Positions 21,374 to 61,410 of a stretch of 64,000 bases of DNA are shown here, piece by piece (the first letter of the stretch is position 1; each line of letters begins with the position of its first letter). The notes under the pieces are model-generated. The model ran no database searches, was not told where the DNA came from, and worked only from the letters and a program-made list of their open reading frames with translations. The stretch covers positions 5,022,001 through 5,086,000 of the forward strand of contig NZ_AP022620.1 of the NCBI RefSeq assembly GCF_010731855.1, in the 5' to 3' direction. Made by a program: the position numbers and the translations under genes. The DNA is from Mycolicibacterium anyangense. GTDB taxonomy: Bacteria > Actinomycetota > Actinomycetes > Mycobacteriales > Mycobacteriaceae.

Positions 21374-21386
21374 CTGCTGATCTCGT

Positions 21387-21430: not shown

Positions 21431-21463
21431 CTTGTTCGCCATCATTAAATGGCAGCGGGGTAT

Positions 21464-21516: not shown

Positions 21517-21523
21517 TGGCGGC

Positions 21524-26791: not shown

Positions 26792-26852
26792 GCGCACCCC
26801 GCCACCTGCTGTTCGGCTACTTGCCATCAGCAAACGGCGGCGGCGCGCCGGT

Positions 26853-26902
26853 AGCTGTGATATCCCTGAGAGACACATCTTTCTCACGCGTCAAATTCGG
26901 GG
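26853..26902 (+). promoter_or_regulatory. conserved upstream block of the second PGRS-like twin
   Basis: This block parallels 21468-21516 before the first twin, ending in a GGGGGG ribosome site 5 nt before GTG 26907 and 11 nt before ATG 26913. It marks a duplicated promoter or leader. The palindrome seen upstream of the first twin is only half kept here. Confidence 0.5.
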
Positions 26903-26912
26903 GGCCGTGGCC

Positions 26913-31359: not shown

Positions 31360-34300
31360 CTAGCTTCCGGCTAAGCGCGTGTCGAGATAGCGAACTACCG
31401 ACGGGTTAGCAACGAGGCGTTTGTCGCCGTTAGGCACGTGCAGCTGCCAGTGCGATTTGGAGTGTTCAAGGACGACGGTATGCACTGGGTCTATCCCGAT
31501 CAACATGCCGCGGGTGAACAATAGGCGTCCGTGTTCGCGAGCCTCGTGCCGGGTTGGAGGACGTGTGGCCGAACATGCGTGGCAAAGCCAGGTGCCGCTG
31601 GATGGCTCCTGAACACACCTTTTGCATATGGGTGTGCCGCAGCAATCACAAATAACCATTCCGTCCGCGCAGGCCGGGCAGCATAGCTGTTGGCAGTATC
31701 CGCATTGGGCGGCTACGGATCCGAAGTGTCCTTCGCGGTCGATCCCGCCCCAATCGAGAATCTGCCGGGAGATGTGATCGGGGCGACGTGCGTCGGTCTT
31801 GCCTGGTGCCAGAGCGGCCTCATATCGCCACTCCTGGCCACCCGAAACAGTGACCTCTTCCGTCACCGAGGCACCGATATCGAGGCAAGTTCTCGGCGCT
31901 GGTTGAACCAGATCTTGCAAAGCAATTCGAAGTTGCATTGGTAACGCATCTAGTGCGGGAGCAGTGACGGATTCCTTCGGGTACCAAGCTGTGAGCGCAT
32001 CGTAGGTGTGGTCGGTGACCACCGCTCCGACGTTCGTTATCTGCCCCAGAGGCCTGATATCGAGTGAAGACGCAGTGGCGTTTGAGACGAGGGACAATCT
32101 GATCTGGTTGGGGTCAGTAAAGATTCCGACCGCGTCGACGTCGCCGAGTCCCATTTTGCGCGACAGGAAGGTCGCAGCCAGAGCTCGCTCGGACGCTGAG
32201 ATCACCCACCACTCAGAACTCTCGAATCGGCAAACGCCTAGCGAAGTCGAACTCGCCATGCTGACGATAGCCGCCTCAACGTCGCCGCTCGCTGCGAACT
32301 TGCGAATGGTTGGGCTTGGTTTCCATGCCTTGGTTATCCAGTCCCTTGCTGGCTTGGATTCTTCCCACTCGCTGATCGTTTCCCCTACGTCAGTGCCCTC
32401 GATCGTGACTTTGCTGATCCCAGCAGGGGTGATCGCAATGTCGAAACCCGTTGGATCCCAACGTAAGGGCATGGTCGTGGTTGTGGGCGCTCCGAGAGAC
32501 TGCAGTACTTTCTTTAGCCGGCGGGGGGTGTTGGGTACTGCCTCAGGCCAGCAGGCGAGTGGCGGAAACTGATCCCCTATTGCTGAATACAGATCACCTT
32601 CAGCGGAGGGATGGGCATCAGGACTTCGTCCTGACAGCCCTAGCCCAGGTACTGACCAAACTGGACGGAATAGTCGTGTCGAACTAACCAGAAGCCGAGG
32701 GCCTGTTCGAGGCGCCTCCGGTTCTGGAGTCACGATGGTGGGAATCACCTGTGACCCCAGCGCACGGCTCGCCGACAGTCTCAGGCGGTACCGGCTGTCG
32801 ACTTGACTTCGGTCGAAGGCAATCCACCGGACAATCGCTCCGTCGCGGACGGTCGCCAATTCGTACGAACTGCCCCGATCAATTGCGATGACGGTTGCGT
32901 CGTTGTCGTCGCCTACGGTAACGGTTGCACCGGCGAGTGCCAGGTCGGCCGGCAGTTTCGCCAACTCATTCAAGGTGAGCGGGGCGAGCCGGCTGCATGC
33001 AGGACACAAGTCGTCGATCCGGCACGACCCGCACACAGCGCGTTCGCACATCGCGCAGTCGGCAACCTGGGGATCGCGACCACAATCAGCGCAAGCGCGG
33101 TCAGCGCACAAAAGGCACTGATCTGCGGCCACGTCGTGTGCCACGCTAGTACATCTCTTACATGCTGGGTGCCAGCAACCCGGGCAGGTGATCGACGCCT
33201 GGTAGCCCGACGCGTCGCAGGCGGCGCAAGCCCACGTTAGGCATGCGTCACAGAGCGCGGCTGTCCCTGCCTCGTAAAAGTGCCCGTCCCGACAGACTCC
33301 GAAGTTTGAGTGGCGGGAACCAGTGTGAGACATGATTGGGGCCAACGGGATACCGTCGAACGTCTGGTATGTGTGGGTGGCGGTTCCGTGCCCGCTCCAT
33401 GTCTCCGTTATCTCAAGACCGCCACGGAGAGCGGCCGTAAACGACCGATCGGTTTTCTCGAGCAGTGCGTGACCTAGCCCAACTGGCAGGGGCGCTACTG
33501 TCTTTGCTGCGAACGTGTTTGGGGCCGCTCCGATCGCTTCGAGTGCGGCAGTGTTGGCGGAGACTACTTCCCTCGCAATCGGGAGTTCATCAAGGATTGC
33601 GACGTCTTGCACGTTGCGTGCCGACAGGCCGCATTCCGACGGTGAGGGGAAGGCGCCGACCACCTGCAGCACTTCGTCGGTGCGCTTGCCAAGCTTTCCG
33701 CCAGGCATCCCGATCGAACAAAGATAGTCATAAGCGCCCAGTTGCTCAGCGGGCGAGGACCGTTCAGGACAAGCAATCCACGACAGAAGCTCTTCTGACT
33801 GATGGCGAGCTGTGATCAAGACGGCTTCATTCCTGCGCTGCAAACTCACGTGGAGGCCACCAAGCTCGACGTCGGCGATCGTGGGATCGTCGATGCGCGG
33901 AGCGATCCAGGCTATGTCGGCGCTCTCGACAGCGATAACGTCTAGGTCCCCGCTGTCGGTGACGAGAGATCTTTCCTCGACGATGCGGTCTGCCTCAAGA
34001 TACACGTCAGTGAAATATGAACGGCGAGTGACGAGTACAGCGGGTCGGGGCGGAGGTGTAACGGCACTGCGCAGCCTCTTCAGGAGATCGGCGAGGCCGG
34101 ATCGACCTTCCGGCACAACGGAGATATCCGGTGCCATGGGAAGATCAGCCAGAGCGCTGCTGTCGATCGACGGGCCGGCGCTAGGAGCGACCGATGTCTC
34201 GACGTCGATGCGCTCGATACTATGCAGGCGTACGCGCCCCTCGTTGTGTTCTGGAACACGCACAGTTAGGTCTTGCAGAACCAAGCCGGAGTCTAGGGGC

Positions 34301-37300
34301 AGCCCGTTCTGGCGGGCAAAGCCGCGCAGGCGGACTCGCTCAGGATCATCAGTGTCATTGTCGTCTACTAGTGCAACTGCCGAAGCATGTTCTCCACGGA
34401 CAAGTTCGGCACTTCGCTCTCCGACTCGGAGAACGTTGTCTCCGTTCAGCCTCCACGCGATCGAGTATTCGTCATCCAGTTCTGGAGCGCGTTCGGGTGA
34501 CGCGCAGCAGCGGCACAGCCCTCCGGTCTCGCGCCGGCATTGCCCGCAGCTTAGCTGTCCGCATGCGGCGCATGGAGCAAAGACTGCATCCTCGCCGCAT
34601 GCCTGGCACAGTACATGGCTGCAAGACTCGCAGCTGGTCGCTTCAGTCTCGTCGACCCAGTGCATTGCGGAGCAGAGGGCGAGAATGCTTATAGCATTTC
34701 CAGAGACGTCACTTTCCACGACGACGGGCTCATGAGTGCCCCACTCGTATGTGATGGAGGTTACGTCGCCACTTGGCCCCGCCCAAGTCTCCTCGACCAG
34801 CCAGTCGTCTTCGTCGAGGGTGACGGCGAGAATTTTCGCGCGGGCTCGAACATCGGGGCGTCGGCTGAGACGGTTCTCCTCTGAGCGTAAGGCCCGTTGC
34901 AGTCGAGCGCGATCTTCCCCGGTCGTGTCGGCGATCTGTGCCTTGTAGCCGCTCACGACGCGCGCGAGCTCTTGGCTCTGTTCCTTCTCGATGGTCTTCG
35001 AACGTTCGCGGCGTAGCTTCTCAAGTTGGGCTGTCGCTGCACGTTCGAACTGGGCGATCACCTTCTGGGCCGTACCGAACGAAGGCGGCAGCGACTCGCC
35101 GTCTTGGAGTGGGCGTCGAGGCAGCCGACGTTCGTTATGGCCGTTGATGTCTGCAGTGATGAGATGTTCTGTCGTCTCTGCCTCGCCGACAGTAGCGCGG
35201 AATGTCGCTTGACCATTCCACGATCCAGAGGGAATAAGGCGCCGACGAACCAGCTGGATGGAGGACGAATGTCGATATGGGCTGGGGCCAATATCGTCGG
35301 GGATAACCGGGACGGTGGCATGCATGTCGCCACGGACGCGGAGGAGCCCGAGCAGTTCGTCGAATACCGGCGAGCCGACTGCGCAGAGCTCGGCATCAGG
35401 GTGGTGCTCTAGACCAAACCGGTCGAAGGCCAGATGCATCACTGTTCGGCCGCCGAGTTCCTGCTCGAACTCTTCATCGAACTTCGCAGTCAGGAAGGCG
35501 CCGTCACCGTCGTCAGTGTCGTGCAGGATCTCGGAGTTAAGGGCGTCGAGAACGCTGCGCACCCAGGTCTGTACACGGCGTTGTCGCATCCGTGCCCGTT
35601 CGCTTACCTCAGGTGCGAGCTCGGTGCTGCCAGCCTTAGTGAGCCCCTCGCGATGGTCGAATGCCGTCGCCATCCATCGGCTCATGCCGCTATCGGCGGC
35701 AATGAGTTCGGAGGCCTTTTCGCGGGCATGCACCAGCTCGGTGCCAAGCTGGTTGAGGAGGTTCTGCATCTTGGAGTCGTTCTCGGCGAATAGAGCTTCC
35801 ATGACGCGTGTTTCGAAGCTTGCGGTCTTCGAGTCATCGAGCTCGCCCAGAATCGTGGTGACCTGCCCGAACAACAGCTCAAACATGCGAAGCTTGTGAG
35901 CGAGCAGCCCGTAGACGCTCTCGTCAATGGTTCCCTGGGCGTAGAGGTTGGCAACAAAGACCTCATCCTTAGGCTGGGTGAGGCGGTCCACGCGGCCGAT
36001 GCGCTGCTCAATTCGCATGGGATTCCAGGGAAGGTCATAGTTCAGAACGCAGTTGCAGAACTGTAAGTTCTGACCCTCGGCACCGGCGTCGGTGGAGATC
36101 ATGATCGGCGCGTCACCGGATTTGAAGGCGGCGATAGTCGCGGCGCGCTCTCCCGCGGACATCGAGCCGTGGAAGGAGCGAGCGTTGAGTCCCTCTAGCT
36201 CCATTCGTCGAAGCAATCCCGTTACCGTGTCGGTGTGCTGGGTAAAGATCAGCACTCGGCCGTGCTCCCGCAGCCAGTCGCGGGTGATCTTCAGCGCGGT
36301 GTCTTCGCGCGCTGACTCGCTGATGTCCATCGCTCGATGCCCGATCTCGAGCAGAACATCTCGGACCCGAAGATCCGGATGACGCTCGGCCATCCGTAGC
36401 GCCGTTGTTCCCATCGCGAATGGGCTTGCGGTGAGACGGAGCGCCAGACTTCGACGGCGCATCGCGTCGCCAGGGTCGCGCATCACCCCGCGCAGCAATT
36501 GGGTTGCTAATACATAGAGTTCCTGCTCGCGAGCTCCTAGCTTGATTGGGACATCCACCGCGCGACGCACTACTCGGTCCACGCCGGCCTGGGCGCGAGT
36601 GGTGCGGATCATGACGCTGCTGATGAGTCGTCGTAGGGCGGCAGGGTCGTTCGGTGTGCGGGGGTCGTATCCCTTCATGAACTGACGTTTGAAATCGGTA
36701 ACCGAGTTGAAGGTTCCGGGTCTGAGCAGCTCGACAAGACGGTAAAGCTCGAGTAAGTCGTTCTGTACGGGCGTCGCGGTCAGAAAGAACGCGTAGCGGC
36801 ACTTCGTCGTCAATGAAGTGATGACATCGCGAGTCTTCCTTGCCCCAGCACCTGCCGCGCGGTGAGCTTCGTCCACGATGACGATGTCCCAGGGCTTCTT
36901 GGTGAGCTTCTCAGCATTACTTCGACCTAATGTCAGACTGAGGATCAGTCTGTCCTGCTGCTGGATCTCGGGGCCACGAGCCGCGATGTCGAAGCTCATG
37001 TCGAACTTACTGTTCATCTCCTCGCGCCACTGATCGCGCAACGGTGCCGGGCACAAGATGAGCACTCGCTTCGCGAGCCCACGTAGCGCGAGCTCCTTGA
37101 CCGCTAATCCGGCTTCGATGGTCTTGCCGAGGCCAACTTCATCGGCAAGTACAGCGCGGCCGCGTAACCGAGACAACGCATGCCGCGCAACAGCTTCTTG
37201 ATGTGGCATCCGATCGACGTTTGACACGTCGACCGCTAGAAGTTCCTCGAAGTCGTCGAGCGTTGCAAGCTCTTCCCCTTGCAGACGCAGTTCCACCAGG

Positions 37301-37791
37301 GAGAGTTCATCGAATCCCGCGGCTTTCAGTTGCTCAGCCAGGAGTTCACGTGCGGTGCTGAGGAACCCAATTGTGCGGTCACCGCCTGCGCCCCAGTCGT
37401 ATTCGGTGTCAGCGTGAAACTGGCGGTCGACGGTGGCGCGACGCTTCTTGGCCTTCGCTCCACTCGACTTGGCGATCGGGATAGGGGGTGGTGTAACGAT
37501 ACTGATCTGGCTCGGCGTTCCTGGCGGCAGAAGCTGCAGCCGGTACACGGTATTGACGAGTCGCAGCCGCAGCAGGCCACCGTCTTGACCCCAATCTTGC
37601 AAACGTTCGGTGAGCAGTTCACCGCTAAGCTGTCGGCTACGTCCGCTCCACTGTGCCAGAAACGGTTCACTCTCGAGTTCGAGCTCGATGGCTGAACTAT
37701 GTTCCGGCAGTGCTAGCGCTGCCGACTCCCGCTCAGTAAGCGCGATCAGGCCAGTTTCTAGGATTTGGTGGGTGATTCGCTTCTCGATCAT
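31360..37791 (-). CDS. giant SNF2/RapA-type helicase with three Cys-rich zinc clusters (2143 aa)
   Basis: Last gene of the defence array; its ATG overlaps the DinG-RecQ stop by 4 bp (ATGA). The SF2/SNF2 core lies at about residues 200-640: P-loop DEVGLGKTIEAGL near 220, DEAH in IVDEAHRAAG near 307, STDAGAEGQNLQF, and motif VI RIEQRIGRVDRL near 594. This resembles RapA/HepA-type ATPases. The remaining ~1500 residues contain three Cys-rich clusters: ~1057-1097 (CESCSHVLCQACGED ... CGQCRRETGGLCRCC), ~1504-1580 (CDACLTWACAACDASG through CAMCERAVCGSCR) and ~2034-2077 (CGYCQQLCCPACADG ... CKRCVQEP). Their B-box/RING-like spacing suggests zinc-bound recognition modules. Third-position base use looks less GC-rich than in the core genes, by eye. 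Likely a DNA translocase in anti-phage defence; exact role unknown. Confidence 0.85.
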   Translation of the reverse strand: MIEKRITHQILETGLIALTERESAALALPEHSSAIELELESEPFLAQWSGRSRQLSGELLTERLQDWGQDGGLLRLRLVNTVYRLQLLPPGTPSQISIVTPPPIPIAKSSGAKAKKRRATVDRQFHADTEYDWGAGGDRTIGFLSTARELLAEQLKAAGFDELSLVELRLQGEELATLDDFEELLAVDVSNVDRMPHQEAVARHALSRLRGRAVLADEVGLGKTIEAGLAVKELALRGLAKRVLILCPAPLRDQWREEMNSKFDMSFDIAARGPEIQQQDRLILSLTLGRSNAEKLTKKPWDIVIVDEAHRAAGAGARKTRDVITSLTTKCRYAFFLTATPVQNDLLELYRLVELLRPGTFNSVTDFKRQFMKGYDPRTPNDPAALRRLISSVMIRTTRAQAGVDRVVRRAVDVPIKLGAREQELYVLATQLLRGVMRDPGDAMRRRSLALRLTASPFAMGTTALRMAERHPDLRVRDVLLEIGHRAMDISESAREDTALKITRDWLREHGRVLIFTQHTDTVTGLLRRMELEGLNARSFHGSMSAGERAATIAAFKSGDAPIMISTDAGAEGQNLQFCNCVLNYDLPWNPMRIEQRIGRVDRLTQPKDEVFVANLYAQGTIDESVYGLLAHKLRMFELLFGQVTTILGELDDSKTASFETRVMEALFAENDSKMQNLLNQLGTELVHAREKASELIAADSGMSRWMATAFDHREGLTKAGSTELAPEVSERARMRQRRVQTWVRSVLDALNSEILHDTDDGDGAFLTAKFDEEFEQELGGRTVMHLAFDRFGLEHHPDAELCAVGSPVFDELLGLLRVRGDMHATVPVIPDDIGPSPYRHSSSIQLVRRRLIPSGSWNGQATFRATVGEAETTEHLITADINGHNERRLPRRPLQDGESLPPSFGTAQKVIAQFERAATAQLEKLRRERSKTIEKEQSQELARVVSGYKAQIADTTGEDRARLQRALRSEENRLSRRPDVRARAKILAVTLDEDDWLVEETWAGPSGDVTSITYEWGTHEPVVVESDVSGNAISILALCSAMHWVDETEATSCESCSHVLCQACGEDAVFAPCAACGQLSCGQCRRETGGLCRCCASPERAPELDDEYSIAWRLNGDNVLRVGERSAELVRGEHASAVALVDDNDTDDPERVRLRGFARQNGLPLDSGLVLQDLTVRVPEHNEGRVRLHSIERIDVETSVAPSAGPSIDSSALADLPMAPDISVVPEGRSGLADLLKRLRSAVTPPPRPAVLVTRRSYFTDVYLEADRIVEERSLVTDSGDLDVIAVESADIAWIAPRIDDPTIADVELGGLHVSLQRRNEAVLITARHQSEELLSWIACPERSSPAEQLGAYDYLCSIGMPGGKLGKRTDEVLQVVGAFPSPSECGLSARNVQDVAILDELPIAREVVSANTAALEAIGAAPNTFAAKTVAPLPVGLGHALLEKTDRSFTAALRGGLEITETWSGHGTATHTYQTFDGIPLAPIMSHTGSRHSNFGVCRDGHFYEAGTAALCDACLTWACAACDASGYQASITCPGCWHPACKRCTSVAHDVAADQCLLCADRACADCGRDPQVADCAMCERAVCGSCRIDDLCPACSRLAPLTLNELAKLPADLALAGATVTVGDDNDATVIAIDRGSSYELATVRDGAIVRWIAFDRSQVDSRYRLRLSASRALGSQVIPTIVTPEPEAPRTGPRLLVSSTRLFRPVWSVPGLGLSGRSPDAHPSAEGDLYSAIGDQFPPLACWPEAVPNTPRRLKKVLQSLGAPTTTTMPLRWDPTGFDIAITPAGISKVTIEGTDVGETISEWEESKPARDWITKAWKPSPTIRKFAASGDVEAAIVSMASSTSLGVCRFESSEWWVISASERALAATFLSRKMGLGDVDAVGIFTDPNQIRLSLVSNATASSLDIRPLGQITNVGAVVTDHTYDALTAWYPKESVTAPALDALPMQLRIALQDLVQPAPRTCLDIGASVTEEVTVSGGQEWRYEAALAPGKTDARRPDHISRQILDWGGIDREGHFGSVAAQCGYCQQLCCPACADGMVICDCCGTPICKRCVQEPSSGTWLCHACSATRPPTRHEAREHGRLLFTRGMLIGIDPVHTVVLEHSKSHWQLHVPNGDKRLVANPSVVRYLDTRLAGS

Positions 37792-40700
37792 TCTGGCTCC
37801 GTCATGCCAAGTGATTGCCAGCCGGCAGATGTCAGGGTGAGGGACTGGTAGGAGGACTGGGATCCTTCGCGGACGGCAGTTCGACGTTCGACGAGGCCTC
37901 TCTCGATGAGCTTGCTCACGGCTTCGTCCCAGCGGCGTTCGCTACCGCGGACGTGGCGCAGAGCACCAAACTGAGGGCAGTTCAACACGCCGGCACCAAG
38001 CGGACGTCCCTCGCCCAGTGATTCACGCCCAAGAACTGCTGCCTTGAGACTGGCTTCGCCGTACGCGCCGCCACGAAATCGGGACGCCCACGCGATCGCC
38101 TGAAGGACAATAAGTTCGACATTGACCAGCAACTCGGGATCGGGCACCATCCGGTCGGGAAGAGCGGACCAAGGTGCCGCCTCGCCGCTGCACACGTCGC
38201 ACGGTTCGACATCTCTGCTCTTGCAATCCATGACGGTGTCGCCGAAGTGGTTTCCGACTACAGTTCGGCGGCAGTTAGAGTCGTTGGTCGCGTAATCGAT
38301 CATTGCCTGGAGACGCCGCTTCTGCCACCACTTCCATTTAGCAGACTCACTTTCCAGTGACTGCTGAGGCGCGACGCGCGACAGTACGCGTACGCGACGC
38401 AGTCTTTTTGAACTGTAGAACGTAATCAGGCGGTCCAGCGACCAGTTGATGAGCTGCTGCTCGAGCTGGTCCGGGTCGTGGCCGTGTTCGTCCTTCATTT
38501 GCTGAAAGTCGAGCTGAACCCGTACGTTCGGCCGAGCTCGGTGCGCCTGGTAGAAGAGCTCACGGAATAGCCGGCGTTCGTCTTCATCGCTGGGATCCTT
38601 AAAGCCGACTTCGACTGTTCCCCTCGCCGAGCAGTCCAAACCCTGTTCGATGGCGTGCACGCGTTCCAATTGGGCCAGATGCACGTTGATCTCATCATCG
38701 TCGATTCCGAGTTTGTCGGCCATGTCATCGATGTTGAAGACACGGCTGCTGCCACGTTCGGGACACTCCCACAGCGCGGCCAGGAGCTGTTGTGTCATTG
38801 CCGCGTCGGCCTTGGTTCCGTGTGCCTCGATGAGCCGACGACGGCGTGCAAGGTCGGAGCTCGTGTACAGCAATACGCATTCACCGGAGATGTCGCGCGC
38901 ACGAGCGGCTCGACCTGCTTCCTGGGCGTACCCGTCTAGAGAGTCTGGGAGGTCGTAATGGGCGACCCATCCGATATTCGGCTTGTTGATACCCATTCCG
39001 AATGCTTTGGTGGCGACGATGATTCGTGTTGTGTCGGAATCGAAGTCTTCCTGAACGGCATCGCGCTGTTCGGGAACCATGCCCGCGTGGTAGGCGCGCG
39101 CCGCATGGCCGGCGCGTCGTAGCAGCGAGGCGATCTCCTCCGCGAGCGCGCGTTTGGAGACGTAGATGATCCCCGACTTATCTCCTGCCCACGTCACAAA
39201 GCGTAGTAGTTCCCGGGCTCGATCTCGCTCGTCTGAACACCTGATCACCCGGAATCGAAGGTTGGGCCGATCACTTGGCTCGCGGATGGCGATGGGCTCA
39301 TGCATGTCCAACGCGACCGCGATGTCCGTTTCGACCTCAGGTGTGGCTGTCGCCGTAAGCCCTGCACGTGGCGGACGGGTCTCAAACGACGCGACGGAGG
39401 CGGGAACCTGGCGGAACTCCGGCCGAAAGTCATGTCCCCAGACGGAGACGCAGTGAGCCTCGTCAACCACGACGCGATTGAGCTGCTGGCGACCTAGAGC
39501 CCCGCGTAAGATTGGATCGCGCGCCAATCGCTCGGGTGATACATACAGAAGCCGCACTTGACCTTTGGCTGTATCGCGCAGAATTTCGATCTGAATCGCC
39601 CGCGATGTTGTCCCTGTGATGCCTTGAACAGGTCTGATACCGCGCCGACCACGCAAGTCGTTGACCTGATCTTTGATCAAGGCGATCAAGGGGGACACGA
39701 CGACGGTAGCCCGAGCCTCGGGGGCGAGTAGCGCGGGAAGTTGGAAGCACAGCGACTTACCGAAGCCGGTCGGTAGCACCGCTACGACATCCCTTCCTTC
39801 GATGATCGCTCGCATCACTTCAAGTTGTTTGGGGTGAAGTTTGGTGATCCCAAACAACTTCTCTGCGGCCTCGGTGAGTTTCGCGGTGGGGTCTTCGCCC
39901 TCGACGAGTCTGAGGTTCTCAAGAAGTTGGGTGACGTCATCACGGCCGAAGGAGATTGCGGCGGAGAGGTCGGGTGGTGTGCCCGTGACAAACTCGATGG
40001 CGCGGGTCCACGCGTCATCCCTGTCGATTGCCTCGTGGATCGTCGGCTCCGGCAGCGATTCGAGGATCACTCGTTGAGCCAGAGTCGGTGAGTGCAGACG
40101 ACGGTCACACACAAACGCCGCGCCTCTGTCCTTCTCAGAGCGAATGAGTCGACCAAACCCTTGGGTGAAGAGCATGGCCGTCATCGGAAGGACGTACTCA
40201 CGGAACGGGTCACCGCCGCGCTCCGCTATGGCGCGCTGGCGAGCGGATACCAGGGGGTCATTCGGATGGGGATAGGGCGGCTTCTCAAGGAACAAGTACG
40301 AGAGTGTGTCGCCGGGTGCGTCAAAGCCCTCCCAGTACGATTTGAGACCATAAAGCACAGTGCCGGGTTCTGTGCGGAAGCGGTGAGCGATCTGCGAGCG
40401 GCCCAATTCACCCTGGACGAGTAACTCGACCCCGCGGTCGGCGAGTTCGGCTGACTTTGTGCGGACACCGTGCGCGACGGCCTCCATACGTTTTCGGGCG
40501 GCAAAGAGCGTCAGCGTCTTTCCGCCGGACAACGACAGAAAGCCAGCTTGGTCGGCTGCCATTTCCTCGCAGAACTCACGCTCGTTGATCGGCACGGGTA
40601 CGGGTAGGTGGTTGGTAAGCACCACGATCGACTGGTTCTGGTAGTCGAACGGGGAGGCGAGACGCAGTGCTCGAAATGCCTCACCGTCGGCGTCGGGACT

Positions 40701-43028: not shown

Positions 43029-43092
43029 GGATTGACCGTCACTACGGAACGACGGGTGCGATTCGACAAAGTGTGGAGTCTGACTGGCACCG

Positions 43093-44379: not shown

Positions 44380-44458
44380 GGTTATCCCCACTCCTCGGAT
44401 GTCGAACCAGCTCGATTACGGCTACTCTGCAACGCGTCGACCCCATGGGTGGCTGCTG

Positions 44459-46723: not shown

Positions 46724-46736
46724 TCGAATCTCCTGT

Positions 46737-48827: not shown

Positions 48828-48845
48828 TGTTCTTCCGTTGCTCGA

Positions 48846-52949: not shown

Positions 52950-55819
52950 CGGGCACCCGCTTCGGGGAGGAACACGTAGATGCCGAGGACATCGGCGGGC
53001 GGCAGGAATTTCACCGTGGGTGCGCGGCCGCCGGCTTTGGAGGCGCTTCGTACCGCCTGATGCTCAGATACGAGGTCTTTTGCCGCATGTTTACCGGTCT
53101 CGGTGAGGTGTTTGCCGAGCGTGGGTAGACGGCCGAGCGCGCGGCCCAGTTGCATTCGGGCTAAAGCATCGTCGACGTTGCCCGAGGGCTTTGCGGTCAG
53201 CAGCGCGTCGACGTCGGCCTGCGGCAACCACTGCAGGTCGTCACCGGTCGCAGTGAAGGCGAGAAATTTGGCTTCCTCGGCGACCTGGGTGACGGTCGTG
53301 GCCGAGCCGGGGATGCTGATCTCCAGCCGGTGCCGCACCATGAGCAACGTCGTCACCTTGCTCACTCCTTGGGTGCGCATGACTCCGGCGCGGCGGGCGG
53401 GCCGTGCCGCGGGGTCGAGCCGGGAATCGAGTGCGGCGTCGAGGACGTACCGGGACAGCGCGTCGACCGTGGCGTCGGTGCGGGTGAGCACGCTGTGCCC
53501 CGTCGGTACCGGGAGCGAGCGGTGGAAGTGCAGCCGCCCGCCCTTGGTGGGCGGGAGCTGGTCGCGCACCGCGGCGGGGAGGGTGTCCACGATCGCGGTG
53601 AACCCGTCATCGTTGTCACTAATCGCAGCGTCCATTAGGGATAGTGCAGTCCGGGTGAAGGTTTCGACGTCGGCGGGGCCGCCGAGGGCGCGGCGGACTT
53701 CGGTGAGCGCGTGTTCGACGGTGTCGGGTTTGAGGCCGGCCTGCCGGAACCTGGAACGCGACGCCTTCTCCCGTTCGGCAGCGTTGGTCCATTCGACGTC
53801 GACCTGTTCAGCCAGCGACTTGGAGGTGGCGTCGGCGAAGTCGAAGGTGAGCTGCTCGGCATCCTTGCCCCGGAGCAGCAGTGACTCCCAGATGGCTTTC
53901 ATCACGGTGGTGGAATCGACGGGGATCGGCACCGAGACGCCGATGCTGCGTTTGATGTTCTCGTGGCGTCGGATGAGGACCTGTAGCACGATCCCGTCGA
54001 TGCCGTTGTCCTCGCCGTAGTAGGTCACGGTGCGCACGGTCGGAGCTTGCTGCCCGAATCGGTCGACGCGTCCTTCGCGTTGCTCGTGCCGGGTGGGGTT
54101 CCAGGCGAGGTCGTAGTGGACGACCGCGGTGAAGCCGTCTTGCAGGTTGATGCCCTCGGAGAGACAGTCGGTTGCAATGAGCAGACGGGGGCCGTCGTGG
54201 GCACTGAGGGTGTTCACGCGGGTTTCGCGTTCCTCCGGCGGGAGAGTTCCGGTTACCGCGTCGATCTTGAGGTCTTTGACCTTCGACAGAGCCGAACCTA
54301 GGTGCTCGGCGAGATAGTCGGCGGTAGGGATATAGCGGCAAAACACGATGGGGTGATAGCGCCGATCGATGAGCTCCTTGAGCAGTGGGATGAGGCGCTT
54401 CAGCTTGGCGTCCGAGCGAGGACCCTTCAAAGCCGCCGCTGCGGCAGCCAACTCGCGCAGCCGCTTTCGCGCTTTGGTGTCGGGCTCATCGGAGCCGCCG
54501 GTGTCCGCGCCGACGGCGACGTCCTGGGCTTCCAATGTGTCGTCCAAATCGGTGTCGAGCACGCGAGGTTCGGCATAGGCGTCGACCTCGGCCTCATCTT
54601 CGTCAGTGGTGTCGGCCACTGCTGAACGATTGAGAAGCGTTTGCTCTGCCGCAGCCGGGCTGGAGGCCAGGCAGCGAAGCAATGCTATTGCCGACCACCA
54701 CCGGACGCGCTGCCGCACCGCGGAGAGCTTCGGGTCAGAGACTTGCTCTCGCACGTACTCCATGACGTCGTCAAAGAGCTGTCGGTATGCGGCGGTGAGC
54801 TTGTATGCCGTCTCGGTGGTTTCACGATCGGGGAAAGGAGTGTCCTCATCCAGGTATTCGCGGATGTCGGCGCGTTGGCGCTGGACCATGAATCGTGCGA
54901 GCAGCTTGCGGTCCTCTTCGCGGTCACGCCCCGACAGGTCGGCGGGCAGGTCCCCCAGGCGATTGTCGAGCAGGCCGATTAGTGACTGCCACGCCGTGTC
55001 GTCGCCGCTGTGCGGGGTGGCGGTCAGTAGTAGGAGGTGGCGGCTGGGATCGTCGGCAAGCTTGCGCAGCAGTGCATACCTCAGGTGAGCTTGCGAAGAC
55101 TTGCCCACGCCCGCCGGCGCCACACACGTGTGCGCCTCATCGACGATTACTAATTCGGGGCAGTGCAAGGCGAACTCGTCGCGGCGCGACTTTTGCTTGA
55201 TGAAATCGGTGGAGATCACCAGATATCGATGATGCTGGTAGACGTTAGAGCCGAACGGGACGCTGCGCATCAGCCGGTTGACGGTGGATGGCAGGAGCAG
55301 TTGCGCGTCGATTCCGAACTTGTGCCGCAGCTCGCTTTGCCATTGTGGCGCGAGCTGGGGCGAACACAAAACGGCGAGCCGCTGGGCCTCGCCGGTGGCG
55401 AGCAGCTCCGCCGCGATCAGGCCGGCCTCGACGGTCTTGCCGACGCCGACACCGTCAGCGATCAACAGCCGGGTGACGTCCTGGTTGGCTGCCATCATCA
55501 GCGGAACAAGTTGGTAGTTGCGCGGTGTGACGGCTAGCCGTGCGAATGAGCGGAATGGGCCGCCGCTGGCGCGGAAAGACAGGCGGAGGGCGTCGCGGAG
55601 CAGGCGTGCTCGACTTGCGTCACCACGGTCGTCGACGGTCGGGGGTTCGAAGGTGGCTGCCGCGAAGTTGTCGATCTCGGGTAGCAGCACGGTGGTCTCG
55701 TGCTCGTGGCCACCGAGCGGGCGGACGAGGAGCGTGCCGTCGGGGGAGCCAGGTAGCACCAGCCAGTCTCGGCCGCGGGCGTTGACTAAGCTGCCTGCGG
55801 GATAGTCGATGGTTGTCAT
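52946..55819 (-). CDS. SNF2-family helicase, DrmD-like (957 aa)
   Basis: The SNF2 core starts after a ~90-residue N-terminal domain: P-loop ADGVGVGKTVEAGLIAAEL at ~121, DEAH at 227-230 (ELVIVDEAHTC), LLTATPHSGDDTAWQSL near 265, ATDCLSEGINLQDG near 550 and motif VI RHEQREGRVDRFGQQAP near 580. An acidic insertion near 400-460 (VADTTDEDEAEVDAY) separates the lobes. The C-terminal ~300 residues are unassigned. Domain order and the adjacent adenine methylase match DrmD of class 1 DISARM. It is joined to both neighbours by 4-bp ATGA overlaps, so the three proteins are probably made in balanced amounts. Confidence 0.88.
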   Translation of the reverse strand: MTTIDYPAGSLVNARGRDWLVLPGSPDGTLLVRPLGGHEHETTVLLPEIDNFAAATFEPPTVDDRGDASRARLLRDALRLSFRASGGPFRSFARLAVTPRNYQLVPLMMAANQDVTRLLIADGVGVGKTVEAGLIAAELLATGEAQRLAVLCSPQLAPQWQSELRHKFGIDAQLLLPSTVNRLMRSVPFGSNVYQHHRYLVISTDFIKQKSRRDEFALHCPELVIVDEAHTCVAPAGVGKSSQAHLRYALLRKLADDPSRHLLLLTATPHSGDDTAWQSLIGLLDNRLGDLPADLSGRDREEDRKLLARFMVQRQRADIREYLDEDTPFPDRETTETAYKLTAAYRQLFDDVMEYVREQVSDPKLSAVRQRVRWWSAIALLRCLASSPAAAEQTLLNRSAVADTTDEDEAEVDAYAEPRVLDTDLDDTLEAQDVAVGADTGGSDEPDTKARKRLRELAAAAAALKGPRSDAKLKRLIPLLKELIDRRYHPIVFCRYIPTADYLAEHLGSALSKVKDLKIDAVTGTLPPEERETRVNTLSAHDGPRLLIATDCLSEGINLQDGFTAVVHYDLAWNPTRHEQREGRVDRFGQQAPTVRTVTYYGEDNGIDGIVLQVLIRRHENIKRSIGVSVPIPVDSTTVMKAIWESLLLRGKDAEQLTFDFADATSKSLAEQVDVEWTNAAEREKASRSRFRQAGLKPDTVEHALTEVRRALGGPADVETFTRTALSLMDAAISDNDDGFTAIVDTLPAAVRDQLPPTKGGRLHFHRSLPVPTGHSVLTRTDATVDALSRYVLDAALDSRLDPAARPARRAGVMRTQGVSKVTTLLMVRHRLEISIPGSATTVTQVAEEAKFLAFTATGDDLQWLPQADVDALLTAKPSGNVDDALARMQLGRALGRLPTLGKHLTETGKHAAKDLVSEHQAVRSASKAGGRAPTVKFLPPADVLGIYVFLPEAGAR

Positions 55820-58800
55820 GCGTGGCTCTTCGCTTCGCCGAAGATGCCGCTGTAGGCGGAGATTATGTTGAGCCAGTTGGCGTTCGCATCATTGTGGTGA
55901 AAGCGCAGCACTAGCCAGCCAGCCTCGTCCTCGAGCTTCATGCGTGCCTGTTCGTCCTTCTCCTGCTGGTGTGCGCTGTCATGGACGGGGCCGTCGATGA
56001 AGATCGCGACATTCATCCCGTCCGTGTAGTAGGCGAAATCTGGTCGCACGTAGTAGCCGTCGACAATCCGTTGAGCGTCATCAGGCAGCCGGTAGCCGTG
56101 CTGTTCAAGCAGAGTGAGGAATTGCTTTTCCAGTTCGCTGTCGCAGGCTTTGATGAGCCGTTCGAGTTGGGCGACTCGATCCTCTCCGCCGGCACCTACC
56201 GCCACCGTGGATGTGGCGAGTCGCTGAAGTAGGTCGAGGACGTTGTGGCGATCCAGATGTTGATGATCCCATTGGTTGCTGTAGGACAGCAGGCAGTCGT
56301 AGCAGGCCTGTGCGCAGACTTCGGTCGCGTGCGGCGCGTGTTTGATATCAGCACCGGTGTCTGCATCGAAGTGCAGTATCTCCAAGGCTTTTCGGGCGAC
56401 CTGACTCAGTTGGCCGTCTTCGGTGGCGAGTCGTCGTAGCACGCCGGCGCCACCCTCAGCGGCTTCGAAGAACAGCAGGCGCGACCAGGCGTGGTCACCG
56501 GTGTTGCTGGGCAGAGCTTCCACTGCCAGTTCGGAGCCTTCCAACTGGTAGACGGCCTCGATGCCGCGCTTGAGCGCGTACATAGCTGCCATCCGCTGGT
56601 CTTTTCCAATGGAAGGGTCCAAGTGCATGAGCAGCGCGTTGCGATGGTCCTCGACATGGGGGATCACTCGCTGATACCGCGGGGCCTCGCCGTGCACATT
56701 CTTGGCAAGGTCAGCCTCCTTGCACCAGCGGCCTTCCACCGTGTCGAGGACATAACCGCGGACGTCCTTGTCCTTGCGGCGGCGCAAACCAACGTTCATC
56801 CGCCGGATGAGCGCGGTGTCGCCATAGGTCATGGTGCCGAGTTCGGCGCCGTCCTCCGTAATGGTGCTGGTGAGTTGTCCAGCTCGAACTCCGTGTGGCA
56901 CAAAGCGAATAGTGGTTACGATCTCGTGTCCGGCGCGCTGGCGTTCCTCTTCGTCGGCGCTAATCCTGTCGCGACGGCGGGTCTTTACCGACAACAGTCG
57001 CATCAGATTGCCCATTGTGGCTTCGGGTGCGAACGGTGCTCCGCAGTGCTGGCAGAGATCAGGATCTGTCGACTCATGCAGGTACCCACAGGCGCTGCAC
57101 CGTTTGATCTCTGTGATGTGGACACCCGTGCCGTCGTCGCGAGCGGGCAGGCTCACACGGTTCACTTCGTAGCGTGCGCCTTCGTGGTAGATGAAGGCGC
57201 CTGGCCCGAACTCGCTGATCGCCATGAATCGGGGTCGCTGGATGAAATCGCCTTCACCACCGCTGCGGGTGCGTCGTTCGGCGGGGATGAACGCCGACAG
57301 GGGCAGCCGCGGAAACGAATAGCCGGGCAGGAAGCCTTCGGATGCGAAGTAGCGGTAGGTGTAGAAATCGCCTTGAAGGACGTCGTCGACTTGCCCCTTG
57401 AGGAGGTCAAGGGCGGCACGTGCCTCCGAAATGCGGCCGCGGGCCCGTTGTTTCGAACTCTCGGACGCACCGATGGTCTTCAATGTCGTATTGGCTTGGT
57501 CCAACTCCGTTTGGGCTTCGTTGTACAGCCCGCGCCACCGGTCTGCAGCACGGTTGAACCGGGCGGGTGCTTGTTCGACGGTATCGGCGATCCACGTGTC
57601 CGTCCACCACGGCGCCGAGGTGACCTCGGTGGTCGCTGTGAGCACGTCTGTAATCGCGGCGATGGCAGCGCTTCGACTCGATGGAGAGTTGATTGTGGCG
57701 AGCACCTCGGGGCGCAGCGGTTGGCCAGGCTGGTCGATTTCCAGGAGGTCGACCATGCTGGCCTTGAGGTCGAGTCCGCATTTGACGAGCCAGATTGAGT
57801 GGGCGTGTGCGCGCACGAGATCCTGGTTGCCCAACTCCAGCCTTGGCGGTGCAACCGCTCCCGCCACCATGTCTTGACTGCGTCGGAAGTAGTAGGCGTC
57901 GTGCGCATTTCCGGTGGCGCAATAAGTCAGGGCAATGGCGGGTTGACCTGACCTGCCGGCCCGTCCCGACCGCTGCGCATAGTTGGCCGGTGTGGGCGGA
58001 ACATTCCGCATGCCAACAACATTGAGGCTCTTGATGTCGACGCCAAGTTCCATGGTGGGGGAGCAGTACAGCACGGGTAGCCGGGCTTCGCTGAACTCTT
58101 CTTCACGCTTCTGGCGTTTGGCCGGCTCGACCTGCGCGGTGTGTTCACGGGCCTCCAGGCCGACCAGCGACTTCGCGATCTCTGCATACAGTGCGCGGAA
58201 GTACGGGTTGACCCGGCCTTTGGTTTGATTGCTGCGGATGCGGTCCGGTGCGCGATGCTCCCCGCTGCCGGGATGCCAGGCAATGAGGTCGGCTCGCAGC
58301 TGGTAGCCGGTCGGACGTCGCGGAACCGGGATGCGCACGAGGATCCCGGCGGCGGCCATCACATCCATCAGATTCTCGATCAGCGCGTCGGCGTCCTTTG
58401 TCTTCAAAGCGTGCTCGAAGCCGGGGAATCGGTTGGGTCGGCGAAGCCACCGTCCGTATGCGCCTAGCCCTGACAGATAGAGATCGGAGCCAATTCCGGC
58501 CACTCCTTTGGGTCGGCCGCCGGAGTAGGCGAGGCCGCTGTAGGTGCCGGCGTCATCGGAGATGGCCCACGGGTCTTTCAGCCATTCTCGGCTGGCCCGC
58601 CGGACAGCGTCGAACTTCTCGTCGGTGAGGAATTCGGTGTCGATGCAGAGGTTTCGACGTAGTTCGTCGAGCAACACCTGCATCACTTCACGTCGGGTCT
58701 CGGCTGTGGCGCTCGCCAAGGGTTCGCCGCAGCTGGTCCATTTGTCGTCGTTGGTGGCGAGTTCATCGACGCCGTCGTAAGACAGGCGTAGTTGGCCGGT

Positions 58801-60954
58801 TTGTTCCAGGTTGGGCATTGTGATCCGCCAGCCTCGCTTGAGGTCGGCCCACAGCCGGTATGTGACAACATCGCGCAGCGCGCGGGCGATTTTCTTGCGT
58901 GGGATGTGCTCGTCGGCTGTTTCTTCGTCGCGGGCGAAGTACTTGAGGCTATTGCCGCTGAGCGCCTTGACCACTTCGGGTCCAAGGTTCTCGTCGGTGA
59001 GGGGTTCCCCGGGATTTTGCTCTTGGTAGTCGAGGGCCGCCCGGTACAAGGCCGAGCGGATGAGCCCGACCAGGATGAAGTCGTTGAAGTGGCCGGCCTG
59101 GAGGCTGGCATCCTGGCGGTTATCACTGAACGCCAGAAACTTTCGCGCTTCGCTGTCGAGTTCGGGCTCCCGGCGCAGCGATCTGACAATCGACTGCGAC
59201 AGCACTGTCACCGCACTTGCGCGGCCTTCGGTACCGAGGCTTGCGACTCGGGAGAACTGGGACTGGCGGGCACTTTCGTAAGTCGTTTTGCACGAGGGGC
59301 AGAATTCGAGTCGCTCGAAGAAAGCGACGGGCATGCCGTCGTCGGTGATCGTCCCGAATTCATCAACACGAAGTGAATTCGGCAGCTTCGGGATTCGGGC
59401 TTTGTCCAGCACCTGACCGCCCCCGCCTGCCACCACCCAATCCTCGGGGACGAGATCGAGCAACGCAGGATCCTGTGGATCGGGCCAGGGCTGCTCGGTC
59501 AGAAGCAACAGGCCGTCAGCTTCGGGGTGTTCGACGAGATCGGAGTTCGGAATGCGCGGGCTGAAGCTCTCTCCGCCGCGCTCAAGATTCACGACGAGAA
59601 ACTCTTGGCCACACTCGCGGCAGAACGCCAGCGGGAACAGCGGCTGCCCCGCTGGCCGGTTCGGCGCGCTGCGTTGGTACTGGGTGGTCAGGTATCTCTT
59701 TGCGGGCGGCTCGAGAGTGGTGTAGACGGTGTCACCCTTGCCGATGAACTGATGCAGCTTGAATGCGAACAGTGAACGGCCCTGCGGGTCGCGGGCCCTC
59801 GACCCAGCGAGCAGCAGTTCCTGGAGCTTCTCTCGGCAGACTGTCTCGTCGACACCCGTCTCCTCGTGGAGCTTCGCGGCGGCGTCTTTAAGCTTCGACG
59901 GCGGCCGCCGCGCGAGCTTGCCTTCATCGTCGGTGTCCAAACCGAAGTGCTGTTCGGTCCAGACCGCCAGAGGGTCTGACCTAAGCTCGCCCGAGTCCTT
60001 CGGCGCGTCTGTTTGTAGACGTGCGGTCAGCGCGGTCGGGTTTAGGTCGCCGGTGGTTGCTCGTCGCAGTGTTTCCCCGACTATGTTGGCCGCGGGAATG
60101 TCAACGCCGAAGATCCTCGTTGCCAACTCGGCGACTTGCTGGCGTTGCTCGGCCTTGGTGCCTGGACCGGCAAGTGTGGCGCTGGTTCCTATGCACTGCA
60201 CTGCGTTGGAGCTGACCGCGCCCCGGAGGCGGCGGACGAGCATTGCGACGTCGGCACCCTGGCGACCGCGATAGGTGTGCAGTTCGTCTAGCACAAGAAA
60301 CGACAGATTTGCCGCGCTGTTGATGAGCTTCTCCCGCTCTTTGGGGCGGGTCAGCATCAACTCCAACATGACGTAATTGGTCAGCAGGATGTCCGGGGGC
60401 GAGGCGAGGGTCTGCTCGCGTTCCTCCCTGTTCTCTTGCCCCGTATATCGAGCGAAGCTGACCTTGGGGTTCGTCTTGCCGAGGAACTTCTCCAACTCAT
60501 TGCGCTGGCTGTTTGCCAGGGCATTCATCGGATAGACGATGATGGCTCGCACACCCTGGCCTGTGCCCTCGCGCAGTACTCGGTCGACGATCGGCACGAT
60601 GTAAGACATCGATTTACCCGAGCCGGTACCCGTGGTTAGAACGTAGGACTCGCGGCGGTTGGCGATCTCGAAGGCGTCCGCTTGGTGGCGGTGGAACGAG
60701 ATGTTGGTGCCGTCTTGAGCCCCGAAGATCTCGACCGCTTTCGGATCGAGGACACCCCGGTCCGCAAGCCCGCTTGCCGTTCCTCCGGACTCGAATGCCG
60801 GGTTGAGGGCAAGCCACGGTTCTGGCCACAGCAGACCTTCGGCGATCTCGGCCTCGACCTTGGCACGAATCTGGTCGTCCTTGATCTCCAGGAAGCCCTT
60901 GACGAAGTTCTCGTAGTCGTCCAGGACCTCCTTGAGGACCCCAAACGCGTCCAT
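55816..60954 (-). CDS. DUF1998-type DEAD/DEAH helicase with C-terminal Vsr-like nuclease domain (1712 aa)
   Basis: First large gene of the array, with a strong TAGGAGGAAG ribosome site. The SF2 helicase core has P-loop TTGTGSGKS at 107-115, DELH at 223-226 (LSFLVLDELHTYRGRQGA), CIGTSATLAGPG near 250 and motif VI YAQRSGRAGRSGQPA near 1000; a long insertion between lobes carries CxxC pairs (FCRECGQEF near 445, FCPSCKTTYE near 551). Another zinc pair is at ~1290-1310 (CSACGYLHE ... CQHCGAPF). A DUF1998/MrfA-type module follows near 1495-1580 (EAAEGGAGVLRRL, CAQACYDCLLSYSNQWDH). The last ~100 residues (RPDFAYYTDGMNVAIFIDG, then PVHD and VLRFHHND) look like a Vsr/DUF559-type PD-(D/E)XK fold. It seems to combine the DISARM DrmA helicase and DrmB DUF1998 roles in one chain. 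Confidence 0.87.
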   Translation of the reverse strand: MDAFGVLKEVLDDYENFVKGFLEIKDDQIRAKVEAEIAEGLLWPEPWLALNPAFESGGTASGLADRGVLDPKAVEIFGAQDGTNISFHRHQADAFEIANRRESYVLTTGTGSGKSMSYIVPIVDRVLREGTGQGVRAIIVYPMNALANSQRNELEKFLGKTNPKVSFARYTGQENREEREQTLASPPDILLTNYVMLELMLTRPKEREKLINSAANLSFLVLDELHTYRGRQGADVAMLVRRLRGAVSSNAVQCIGTSATLAGPGTKAEQRQQVAELATRIFGVDIPAANIVGETLRRATTGDLNPTALTARLQTDAPKDSGELRSDPLAVWTEQHFGLDTDDEGKLARRPPSKLKDAAAKLHEETGVDETVCREKLQELLLAGSRARDPQGRSLFAFKLHQFIGKGDTVYTTLEPPAKRYLTTQYQRSAPNRPAGQPLFPLAFCRECGQEFLVVNLERGGESFSPRIPNSDLVEHPEADGLLLLTEQPWPDPQDPALLDLVPEDWVVAGGGGQVLDKARIPKLPNSLRVDEFGTITDDGMPVAFFERLEFCPSCKTTYESARQSQFSRVASLGTEGRASAVTVLSQSIVRSLRREPELDSEARKFLAFSDNRQDASLQAGHFNDFILVGLIRSALYRAALDYQEQNPGEPLTDENLGPEVVKALSGNSLKYFARDEETADEHIPRKKIARALRDVVTYRLWADLKRGWRITMPNLEQTGQLRLSYDGVDELATNDDKWTSCGEPLASATAETRREVMQVLLDELRRNLCIDTEFLTDEKFDAVRRASREWLKDPWAISDDAGTYSGLAYSGGRPKGVAGIGSDLYLSGLGAYGRWLRRPNRFPGFEHALKTKDADALIENLMDVMAAAGILVRIPVPRRPTGYQLRADLIAWHPGSGEHRAPDRIRSNQTKGRVNPYFRALYAEIAKSLVGLEAREHTAQVEPAKRQKREEEFSEARLPVLYCSPTMELGVDIKSLNVVGMRNVPPTPANYAQRSGRAGRSGQPAIALTYCATGNAHDAYYFRRSQDMVAGAVAPPRLELGNQDLVRAHAHSIWLVKCGLDLKASMVDLLEIDQPGQPLRPEVLATINSPSSRSAAIAAITDVLTATTEVTSAPWWTDTWIADTVEQAPARFNRAADRWRGLYNEAQTELDQANTTLKTIGASESSKQRARGRISEARAALDLLKGQVDDVLQGDFYTYRYFASEGFLPGYSFPRLPLSAFIPAERRTRSGGEGDFIQRPRFMAISEFGPGAFIYHEGARYEVNRVSLPARDDGTGVHITEIKRCSACGYLHESTDPDLCQHCGAPFAPEATMGNLMRLLSVKTRRRDRISADEEERQRAGHEIVTTIRFVPHGVRAGQLTSTITEDGAELGTMTYGDTALIRRMNVGLRRRKDKDVRGYVLDTVEGRWCKEADLAKNVHGEAPRYQRVIPHVEDHRNALLMHLDPSIGKDQRMAAMYALKRGIEAVYQLEGSELAVEALPSNTGDHAWSRLLFFEAAEGGAGVLRRLATEDGQLSQVARKALEILHFDADTGADIKHAPHATEVCAQACYDCLLSYSNQWDHQHLDRHNVLDLLQRLATSTVAVGAGGEDRVAQLERLIKACDSELEKQFLTLLEQHGYRLPDDAQRIVDGYYVRPDFAYYTDGMNVAIFIDGPVHDSAHQQEKDEQARMKLEDEAGWLVLRFHHNDANANWLNIISAYSGIFGEAKSHA

Positions 60955-61020
60955 GACTTCCTCCTAGATGGTGCGCGGCAGCAACGATTGCCCCTTGGCA
61001 TCGTCTACTAACCCTCGTGA

Positions 61021-61055
61021 CAATATGACCATACTGGCGGGGTCCGACATCGGAC
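61021..61055 (-). promoter_or_regulatory. candidate internal promoter and operator before the DUF1998 helicase gene
   Basis: On the minus strand TATGGT (61033-61028) fits TANNNT, giving a start near 61021 and a leader of about 67 nt. An inverted repeat GTCCGA-CA-TCGGAC at 61042-61055 falls where the -35/spacer would be, an operator-like position. No regulator gene is in the array. Confidence 0.35.
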
Positions 61056-61167
61056 GGGTGATCGAACGTGGAACTTGCTTACCCGTGTGGCCCGCGAGAC
61101 GTGTGGCGGCGCAGATTCGCCTAAGACCTTGCAGTTTCTAGTTAACCACCAGGGTGCGTCGAGTCCG

Positions 61168-61410
61168 CTAAGGGCGCGCTGCTGGGAATTGTCTGATTAT
61201 CGCCTGTACAAATTCGCGCGCCATCTGTTCGTCCAATTCGATAATTTGACTCGGCTTCGGCCCCGATTTCCGACCGTCAGAACCCAAAGTGGCAAATCGA
61301 AGACGGCATTCACCATCCTTGGTAGTAACAGCTGTGTAAAGGCAATCAACGCTGGTTTCGGGGGCCCTAGCGGGCTTGGTGTCGCGAGTCAATGATCGAA
61401 TGCGTGCCAT
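61168..61410 (-). CDS. small conserved-looking protein leading the defence array (80 aa)
   Basis: The 80-residue product has a basic N-terminus (MARIRSLTRDTKPARAP), a beta-rich middle (DCLYTAVTTKDGECRLRFAT) and the stretch LGSDGRKSGPKPSQIIELDE followed by a helix (QMAREFVQAIIRQFP). I recall similar small proteins with a GSD-R-K...SQ...D pattern near methyltransferase-containing defence loci, but could not verify this. A TACCCT box 6 nt before the ATG suggests a leaderless transcript that could also carry the array. It ends 213 bp before the helicase gene. Function unknown. Confidence 0.6.
   Translation of the reverse strand: MARIRSLTRDTKPARAPETSVDCLYTAVTTKDGECRLRFATLGSDGRKSGPKPSQIIELDEQMAREFVQAIIRQFPAARP

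Follow-up and report, generated by a model that had tools for sequence, protein, structure and literature searches.

A probable composite defense array of Mycolicibacterium anyangense with an ARMADA Type I core and an apparently undescribed helicase-exonuclease and SNF2 gene pair

A window of 64,000 nucleotides from Mycolicibacterium anyangense (assembly GCF_010731855.1, contig NZ_AP022620.1, positions 5,022,001 to 5,086,000 of the forward strand) was analyzed, and within it an array of nine minus-strand genes, designated S and A to H. It was concluded that the array was probably a composite defense cargo of three modules (A-B-C, D-E and G-H) and not one system. The set was composite in its occurrence: A-B-C was found without the rest, D-E lay near DISARM genes, a homolog of F was located in a BREX-2 locus, and G-H was accompanied by various neighbors. 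The new part was apparently the G-H pair with an exchangeable tail of the H protein, the core A-B-C having already been named.

Organization of the array

Eight long open reading frames (ORFs) were recovered at 31360-60954, all on the minus strand, plus an ORF of 80 amino acids (aa) at 61168-61410, in agreement with an earlier sequence-only reading of this DNA, which had described nine tightly packed minus-strand genes. Overlaps of 4 bp were found at the A/B, B/C and G/H junctions, and gaps of 18, 13 and 67 bp separated C/D, D/E and E/F, respectively. The proteins were 80 (S), 1712 (A), 957 (B), 1367 (C), 696 (D), 754 (E), 432 (F) and 2143 aa (H) long. The ORF of G opened at 43190 and covered 1800 aa; homologs placed its start near 43028, which would leave an F-G gap of ~64 bp and a protein of probably ~1746 aa. 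Profile searches returned the same domains as had been proposed previously: DEAD and MZB/DUF1998 (A), SNF2-type (B), N6-methylase (C), UvrD (D), GmrSD_N (E), RNase_T, Helicase_C_2 of the DinG type and RecQ (G), and SNF2 (H), with no Pfam match for F.

Features of the array (positions in the window):
61168-61410, minus strand: S, 80-aa ORF upstream of A, no assigned function (in M. sp. shizuoka-1, a 71% match lies upstream of A)
55816-60954, minus strand: A, YprA-family helicase with MZB/DUF1998, assigned as the first gene of ARMADA Type I (domains, conservation)
55873-56130, minus strand: A residues 1609-1694, C-terminal DUF559/Vsr-type nuclease-like region (marginal match)
52946-55819, minus strand: B, BrxHII/RapA-like SNF2 helicase (domain matches)
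48846-52949, minus strand: C, PglX/DrmMI-like N6-adenine methylase, NPPW motif at residue 813 (domain matches)
49050-50249, minus strand: C residues 901-1300, replaced between the window and shizuoka-1, supposed target-recognition region (identity, silent sites)
46737-48827, minus strand: D, UvrD/GajB-like helicase of the ArmD family (domain and homology matches)
44459-46723, minus strand: E, GmrSD-type protein with DGQQR and HHIFPK motifs (domain, motifs, match to DUF262 protein 7p9k)
43093-44391, minus strand: F, 432 aa, no family (homolog within a BREX-2 locus of another genome)
37788-43028 (ORF opens at 43190), minus strand: G, DEDDh exonuclease-DinG-RecQ fusion (domain matches)
31360-37791, minus strand: H, SNF2 ATPase whose long tail is rich in cysteine (domain match, conservation)
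34504-34632, minus strand: H cysteine array, residues 1054-1096 (conservation)
33292-34491, minus strand: H variable domain V1, residues 1101-1500 (conservation, silent sites)
32995-33252, minus strand: H cysteine array, residues 1514-1599 (conservation)
31732-32961, minus strand: H variable domain V2, residues 1611-2020 (conservation, silent sites)
31573-31704, minus strand: H cysteine array, residues 2030-2073 (conservation)

The GC content of the array was ~0.60-0.66 vs ~0.65-0.70 for the remainder of the window, as expected for acquired DNA; the host genome is a single contig of 5.7 Mb. Of the loci examined, the window and M. sp. shizuoka-1 (genome G459) alone had the complete ordered set. 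Apart from shizuoka-1, S had no match at E 1e-5 in the remaining loci compared. It was also observed that the shizuoka-1 array had different flanks, with no match to the flanking genes of the window in the stretches compared. The ORF caller applied to the loci of relatives was simple and gave approximate start positions, and in the searches of class and genus only the top few candidates of each genome were scored.

The previous suggestion that the combination may be a distinct system did not hold for the set as a whole, in that the core was already named ARMADA and the genes did not behave as one unit. The sequence-only reading was partly supported overall; the tail of H, which appears exchangeable and was the most unusual feature of the array, had been overlooked in it.

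The A-B-C core and its Type IV partners

The A protein contained DEAD, Helicase_C and MZB/DUF1998 domains and a marginal C-terminal DUF559 match. The MZB domain scored 34.8 bits against a cut-off of 24.2, and the zinc cysteines C1547, C1551 and C1554 were at least 95% conserved in 29 homologs. DUF559 reached 20.7 bits, barely over its cut-off of 20.6, and the acidic residues E1609, D1625, D1639 and D1654 were kept in 83-93% of the same homologs; a C-terminal Vsr-type nuclease region similar to that of ARMADA is marginally indicated. The best PADLOC family of A was DruE3 (366 bits). As had been proposed, DrmA- and DrmB-like parts appeared fused, a helicase and DUF1998 being encoded by one 1712-aa gene, and phospholipase-D DrmC was indeed missing: no PLD family and no HxK(4)D motif were found in the eight proteins. 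The B protein did not reach the curated DrmD cut-off (320.6 bits vs 610). The PADLOC model PDLC02853, named DpdE, fitted B (52946-55819) over its full length with 876 bits, while the NCBIfam DpdE model gave 172 against a cut-off of 500; ARMADA I loci may be wrongly labeled Dpd by PADLOC 2.0.

In the available part of the preprint by Bell et al. 2025 (bioRxiv, PMC12458937), ARMADA Type I consists of a YprA helicase, which carries a Vsr-type nuclease at its C terminus, followed by a BrxHII-like protein and a PglX-like methylase. Since this order has been published, the core is already known, and by families and order A-B-C is assigned to ARMADA Type I. The relation to DISARM claimed in the sequence-only reading was retained in this form, because A-B-C has the content and order of ARMADA Type I and, according to the same part of that source, helicase and methylase families in common with DISARM class 1 (PMC12458937). 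The system tested there was Type II (BrxHII-PglX-YprA-ArmD), which protected E. coli by a non-abortive mechanism (PMC12458937).

The core was widespread. Matches to B were recorded in 618 plasmid records (63 at a coverage of at least 80%), and six plasmid loci were opened (two Rhodococcus, Nocardioides, Deinococcus radiodurans MP1, Chlorohelix and Hydrogenimonas), all of which carried A-B-C. At E ≤ 1e-150, B was detected in 24 of the 296 genomes of the class, its own included. The class search gave 24 places besides that of the window, and 21 were fetched (all but G207, G224 and G242). The comparison set of 31 loci consisted of the window, the 21 class loci, the six plasmids, M. sp. shizuoka-1, M. 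shimoidei and G339, the A gene of the latter being cut by the edge of the fetched stretch. The one-strand order A-B-C was kept in 30 of them, the exception being G110, where A was missing. Small genes lay in between in Chlorohelix, C was interrupted in Deinococcus and B was split into two ORFs in Rhodococcus VT6. In a tree with long branches, a midpoint root and the published Type I references absent, 14 A-B-C helicases were separated from DruE and the two Type II-like helicases (100/98).

Some of these and other loci showed further features. The Nocardioides plasmid pNOCA01 (L003, 4445-30742) carried annotated DISARM drmA-drmB, then A-B-C and then McrBC. In D. radiodurans MP1 (L004, 14881-33507), A-B-C with its interrupted methylase had an IS630-type transposase gene among the pieces and was followed by McrBC. 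A Klebsiella plasmid (L099, 960-17186) contained ARMADA II-type genes in the Type II order behind Druantia III DruH-DruE genes; the fourth gene of this locus was found in 525 of the 5,426 E. coli genomes.

McrBC or GmrSD was located within ~5 kb of C in 15 of the 28 evaluable A-B-C loci; three others ended too soon for this count (G011, G268 and Hydrogenimonas). In 12 loci McrBC was found downstream of C at a distance of at most ~1.5 kb (the G105 copy being cut by the contig end), in G212 at a distance of at most ~5 kb, and E followed D in the window and in shizuoka-1. In four loci (G018, G293, G243 and G208) McrBC occurred together with D 12-19 kb onward. No McrBC or GmrSD was matched by the queries in eight (G171, G071, G223, G291, G110, G339 and both Rhodococcus). 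The genes after C in Chlorohelix (EVE-domain and DUF2357), which we take to be McrBC-like, had no match to the McrBC queries and were left out; the count would be 16 if they were included. That McrBC often accompanies a DISARM-like cassette has been published before, in the part of the source available (PMC11090510).

The D protein matched the fourth gene (ArmD) of the Klebsiella Type II locus with 36% identity over residues 3-691; its N-terminal RelE-like domain, searched alone, gave no match in the Protein Data Bank (PDB). In the E protein, GmrSD_N scored 99.7 bits (cut-off 33.2), the DGQQR and HHIFPK motifs lay at residues 75 and 425, and a match to the DUF262 protein 7p9k was obtained; by analogy, E likely cleaves modified phage DNA. 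Homologs of D were present in 76 of the 296 class genomes at E ≤ 1e-40. Ten loci among the fifteen best-scoring after the window's own were fetched; E followed D in eight, and DrmA and/or DrmB were nearby in six. D-E was therefore a recurrent pair, often near DISARM drmA-drmB. The DrmA proteins of L102, L105 and L111 and the DrmB proteins of L102 and L105 passed the NCBIfam cut-offs. In three scanned loci with D-E and DISARM, a gene lay in between, namely a PD-T4-6-like kinase gene (L103, L106) or an N6-methylase gene (L105). Actinobacterial DISARM genes near the D-E pair were seen in L102, L103, L104, L105 and L106. Relatives of F were detected in 20 of the 296 genomes at E ≤ 1e-3, mostly weak, and the F homolog of genome G129 was placed inside a BREX-2 locus.

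We proposed that in the first module C would mark host adenines in a motif set by its target-recognition region, while A, a helicase and possibly nuclease, and the translocase B would attack unmarked DNA. The second module would add the helicase D and the GmrSD enzyme E, the latter cutting modified phage DNA that had escaped the first one, as suggested by the example of BrxU.

The G-H pair and the variable tail of H

The G protein combined RNase_T (DEDDh), Helicase_C_2 and RecQ domains. Its catalytic, Fe-S and zinc residues were invariant in the 20 G proteins compared, except D236 and H291 (19 of 20), and the Walker and DEAH residues of H were invariant in 19 proteins, these being the full-length H of 22 loci (G340 is contig-cut, G342 broken and G377 truncated). 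G was present in 21 of the 248 genomes of the genus, its own included. A pattern scan for G over 84,980 species, one genome each, which detects close relatives only, gave 80 candidate stretches and six loci, all in mycobacteria. Residues 700-2143 of H were found in two of the 296 class genomes (its own and G231) and had no match in 72,556 plasmids. No description of a DEDDh-DinG-RecQ and SNF2 pair was found in the open-licence papers searched, including the available parts of PMC11090510 and PMC13316683, and the pair is apparently undescribed.

The context of G-H was compared in 22 loci (the 21 genus genomes with G and M. intermedium) over ~20 kb upstream, or 10 kb for M. intermedium. H adjoined G in all 22, one having an insertion of ~2.5 kb, two being broken or truncated and one contig-cut. 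In G342 (L142/L143) G-H lay in pieces, and in G377 (L131) H was truncated. ARMADA, BREX-2 or DISARM was near G-H in 13 loci: ARMADA I in four (the window, G459, M. shimoidei G474 and G339), ARMADA II-type genes in two (M. iranicum G488 and G387), BREX-2 in two (G231 and G419) and DISARM genes in five (G318, G377, G359, G315 and G483; curated cut-offs were checked in G359 only). A divergent Type IV-type helicase-nuclease adjoined G in four more, by PADLOC in G466, G331 and G420 and by N-terminal likeness only in G325. No such system was recognized within this range in G306, G519, the broken G342 and M. intermedium; a RecQ-like and a PDC-M26A-like gene neighbored G-H in G306, and the neighborhood of G340 was not judgeable. 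A rough estimate, based on B in 4 of 18 sampled genus genomes and 40 kb being ~0.7% of a genome, gave ~0.03 of the 22 loci expected near ARMADA I vs four seen. G-H appears to be a separately inherited mycobacterial pair with a putative antiviral role. Three large low-complexity, secreted-looking proteins without PADLOC matches adjoin the array in the window (19805-30812, plus strand); the first of them also has a relative in G231 and G419, on the downstream side of G-H.

Conservation of H was mostly 0.75-0.92 up to residue 1000. Beyond it, three cysteine arrays (1054-1096, 1514-1599 and 2030-2073), whose CxxC cysteines were 95-100% conserved, enclosed two poorly conserved domains of ~400 aa, V1 and V2. 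These were related to each other (HHalign probability 90.8 over 339 columns, six sequences). The median identity over 171 H pairs was 0.45 and 0.41 in the tail vs 0.77 in the core.

Silent sites were tested in five H pairs and one C pair. The H proteins of G325 and G387 were 0.98 identical in the core, 0.57 in V1 and 0.92 in V2, and 496 of 572 four-fold sites were alike in the core, 49 of 129 in V1 (p 1.5e-28) and 209 of 235 in V2 (p 0.42). Between the window and G459 the corresponding counts were 454/587, 43/145 and 57/144, both domains having been replaced. In G325/G483 both V1 and V2 differed (p below 1e-4), in G387/G483 V1 showed no replacement (p 0.21) and V2 a mild one (p 0.002), and in G231/G419 none was detected (p 0.64 and 0.30). 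Replaced silent sites mean incoming DNA, i.e. recombination. In the C protein of the window and G459, 43 of 137 four-fold sites were alike in residues 901-1300 vs 376 of 501 in residues 1-880. This is presumably the position at which PglX-like enzymes hold target recognition, and an exchange there would fit a changed methylated motif. In the same two genomes, the 100-residue blocks of B, D and F were 0.92-1.00 identical, those of G 0.86-1.00 and those of A 0.75-1.00. The tails nearest to that of the ARMADA-linked G459 were those of the BREX-linked G231 and G419 and not that of the window, so the H tail did not track the neighboring system.

In HsdS of Type I restriction, two related variable domains lie between conserved segments and are singly exchanged by recombination, and the replacement in the H tail appears to resemble such an exchange of specificity domains. 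We tentatively proposed, with somewhat less than even confidence, that G-H is an autonomous two-gene mycobacterial antiviral system, in which an SNF2 giant, braced by zinc and bearing two exchangeable recognition domains like those of HsdS, steers a dual-polarity helicase-exonuclease onto invading DNA and in which the range is reset by single-domain recombination. In the favored composite reading, H would bind its target through V1 and V2, held between the cysteine (zinc) arrays, and the SNF2 motor would translocate. G would unwind DNA in both polarities (5'-3' by DinG and 3'-5' by RecQ) and its exonuclease would degrade it.

Alternative readings and comparison with known systems

Several observations weigh against the proposed modules and recognition domains. 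Only two of the five close H pairs tested showed clear replacement, one showed none and two were milder. The identity of E fell to 0.73-0.89 in residues 1-400 between the window and G459; with the dips in parts of A, this means that replacement was not limited to the supposed specificity regions. No confident fold was obtained for the H tail, the function of each module is a prediction, and defense genes cluster anyway, so the neighborhood of G-H is no proof of joint action.

It was judged unlikely that G-H recognizes nothing by itself and serves as a shared accessory, which boosts an adjacent ARMADA, BREX or DISARM by clearing DNA that those systems opened. Such a system was near in 13 of the 22 loci, and in the window and G459 G-H runs in the same direction as ARMADA I, D, E and F; however, none was near in G306, G519, the broken G342 and M. 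intermedium, and the closest tails of G459 were BREX-linked. A repair or genome-maintenance pair with no defense role would suit DinG, RecQ and DnaQ-type exonucleases, which are repair enzymes, and the few loci without defense neighbors. This was considered improbable in view of the patchy occurrence of G (21 of 248), the lower-GC setting, the defense systems near most loci and the fast-exchanging tail. That the tail is just weakly constrained and fast-diverging, with no exchange of recognition domains, agrees with its poor conservation over the 171 pairs. It is nevertheless very improbable, since in G325/G387 the similarity at four-fold sites passed from 0.87 to 0.38 in V1 and back to 0.89 in V2, for which amino-acid divergence alone is insufficient, and the tail cysteines were nearly invariant. 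One obligate system of all eight or nine genes is hardly credible: the genes are co-directional and tightly packed and the full ordered set recurs in shizuoka-1, but every module occurs without the others and the full set was seen in two genomes only.

The comparison indicates that the large helicase-methylase systems ARMADA, DISARM and BREX share a common stock of add-on modules. Type IV restriction is a recurrent partner, a methylase-based core being joined by an enzyme that would act against DNA escaping by modification. If the proposal for G-H is true, a recognition subunit inside an SNF2 motor shifts specificity by swapping one of two tail domains, in the manner of HsdS, and the natural near-identical H pairs make this idea directly testable.

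Among known systems, ARMADA Type I has the same three families in the same order, a C-terminal Vsr-type nuclease region and zinc motifs; D, E, F, G and H are additional in the window, and GmrSD, DinG and RecQ are unmentioned in the available part of the preprint text (PMC12458937). ARMADA Type II has the order BrxHII-PglX-YprA-ArmD, whereas that of the window is YprA, SNF2, methylase and UvrD; the two are linked by D, a member of the ArmD family. The SNF2 helicase, adenine methylase and helicase/DUF1998 functions of DISARM class 1 are also present in the window, but the DrmA and DrmB functions are fused in one gene and no PLD nuclease was found. Among the PADLOC matches listed for the eight array proteins, at most 25 per list, there was no DruH, in difference from Druantia III, and among all domain and PADLOC matches listed for them there was no PglZ or BrxC/PglY, in difference from BREX. 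BREX plus BrxU was reportedly studied by Picton et al. in 2021. In that combination, as in the window, a GmrSD-family enzyme adjoins a methylase-based system, and it is a tested precedent of complementary protection in the available part of the source (PMC8565348); the window differs in its ARMADA core and in E being paired with D. DinG proteins with a DEDDh exonuclease and RecQ resemble G, which holds both helicase types and an exonuclease domain, although the triple fusion was not seen outside mycobacteria in a limited search. Unlike HsdS, which it resembles in layout, H combines an SNF2 ATPase with cysteine arrays; it too has two related variable domains flanked by conserved segments, and in one pair a single domain was swapped alone.
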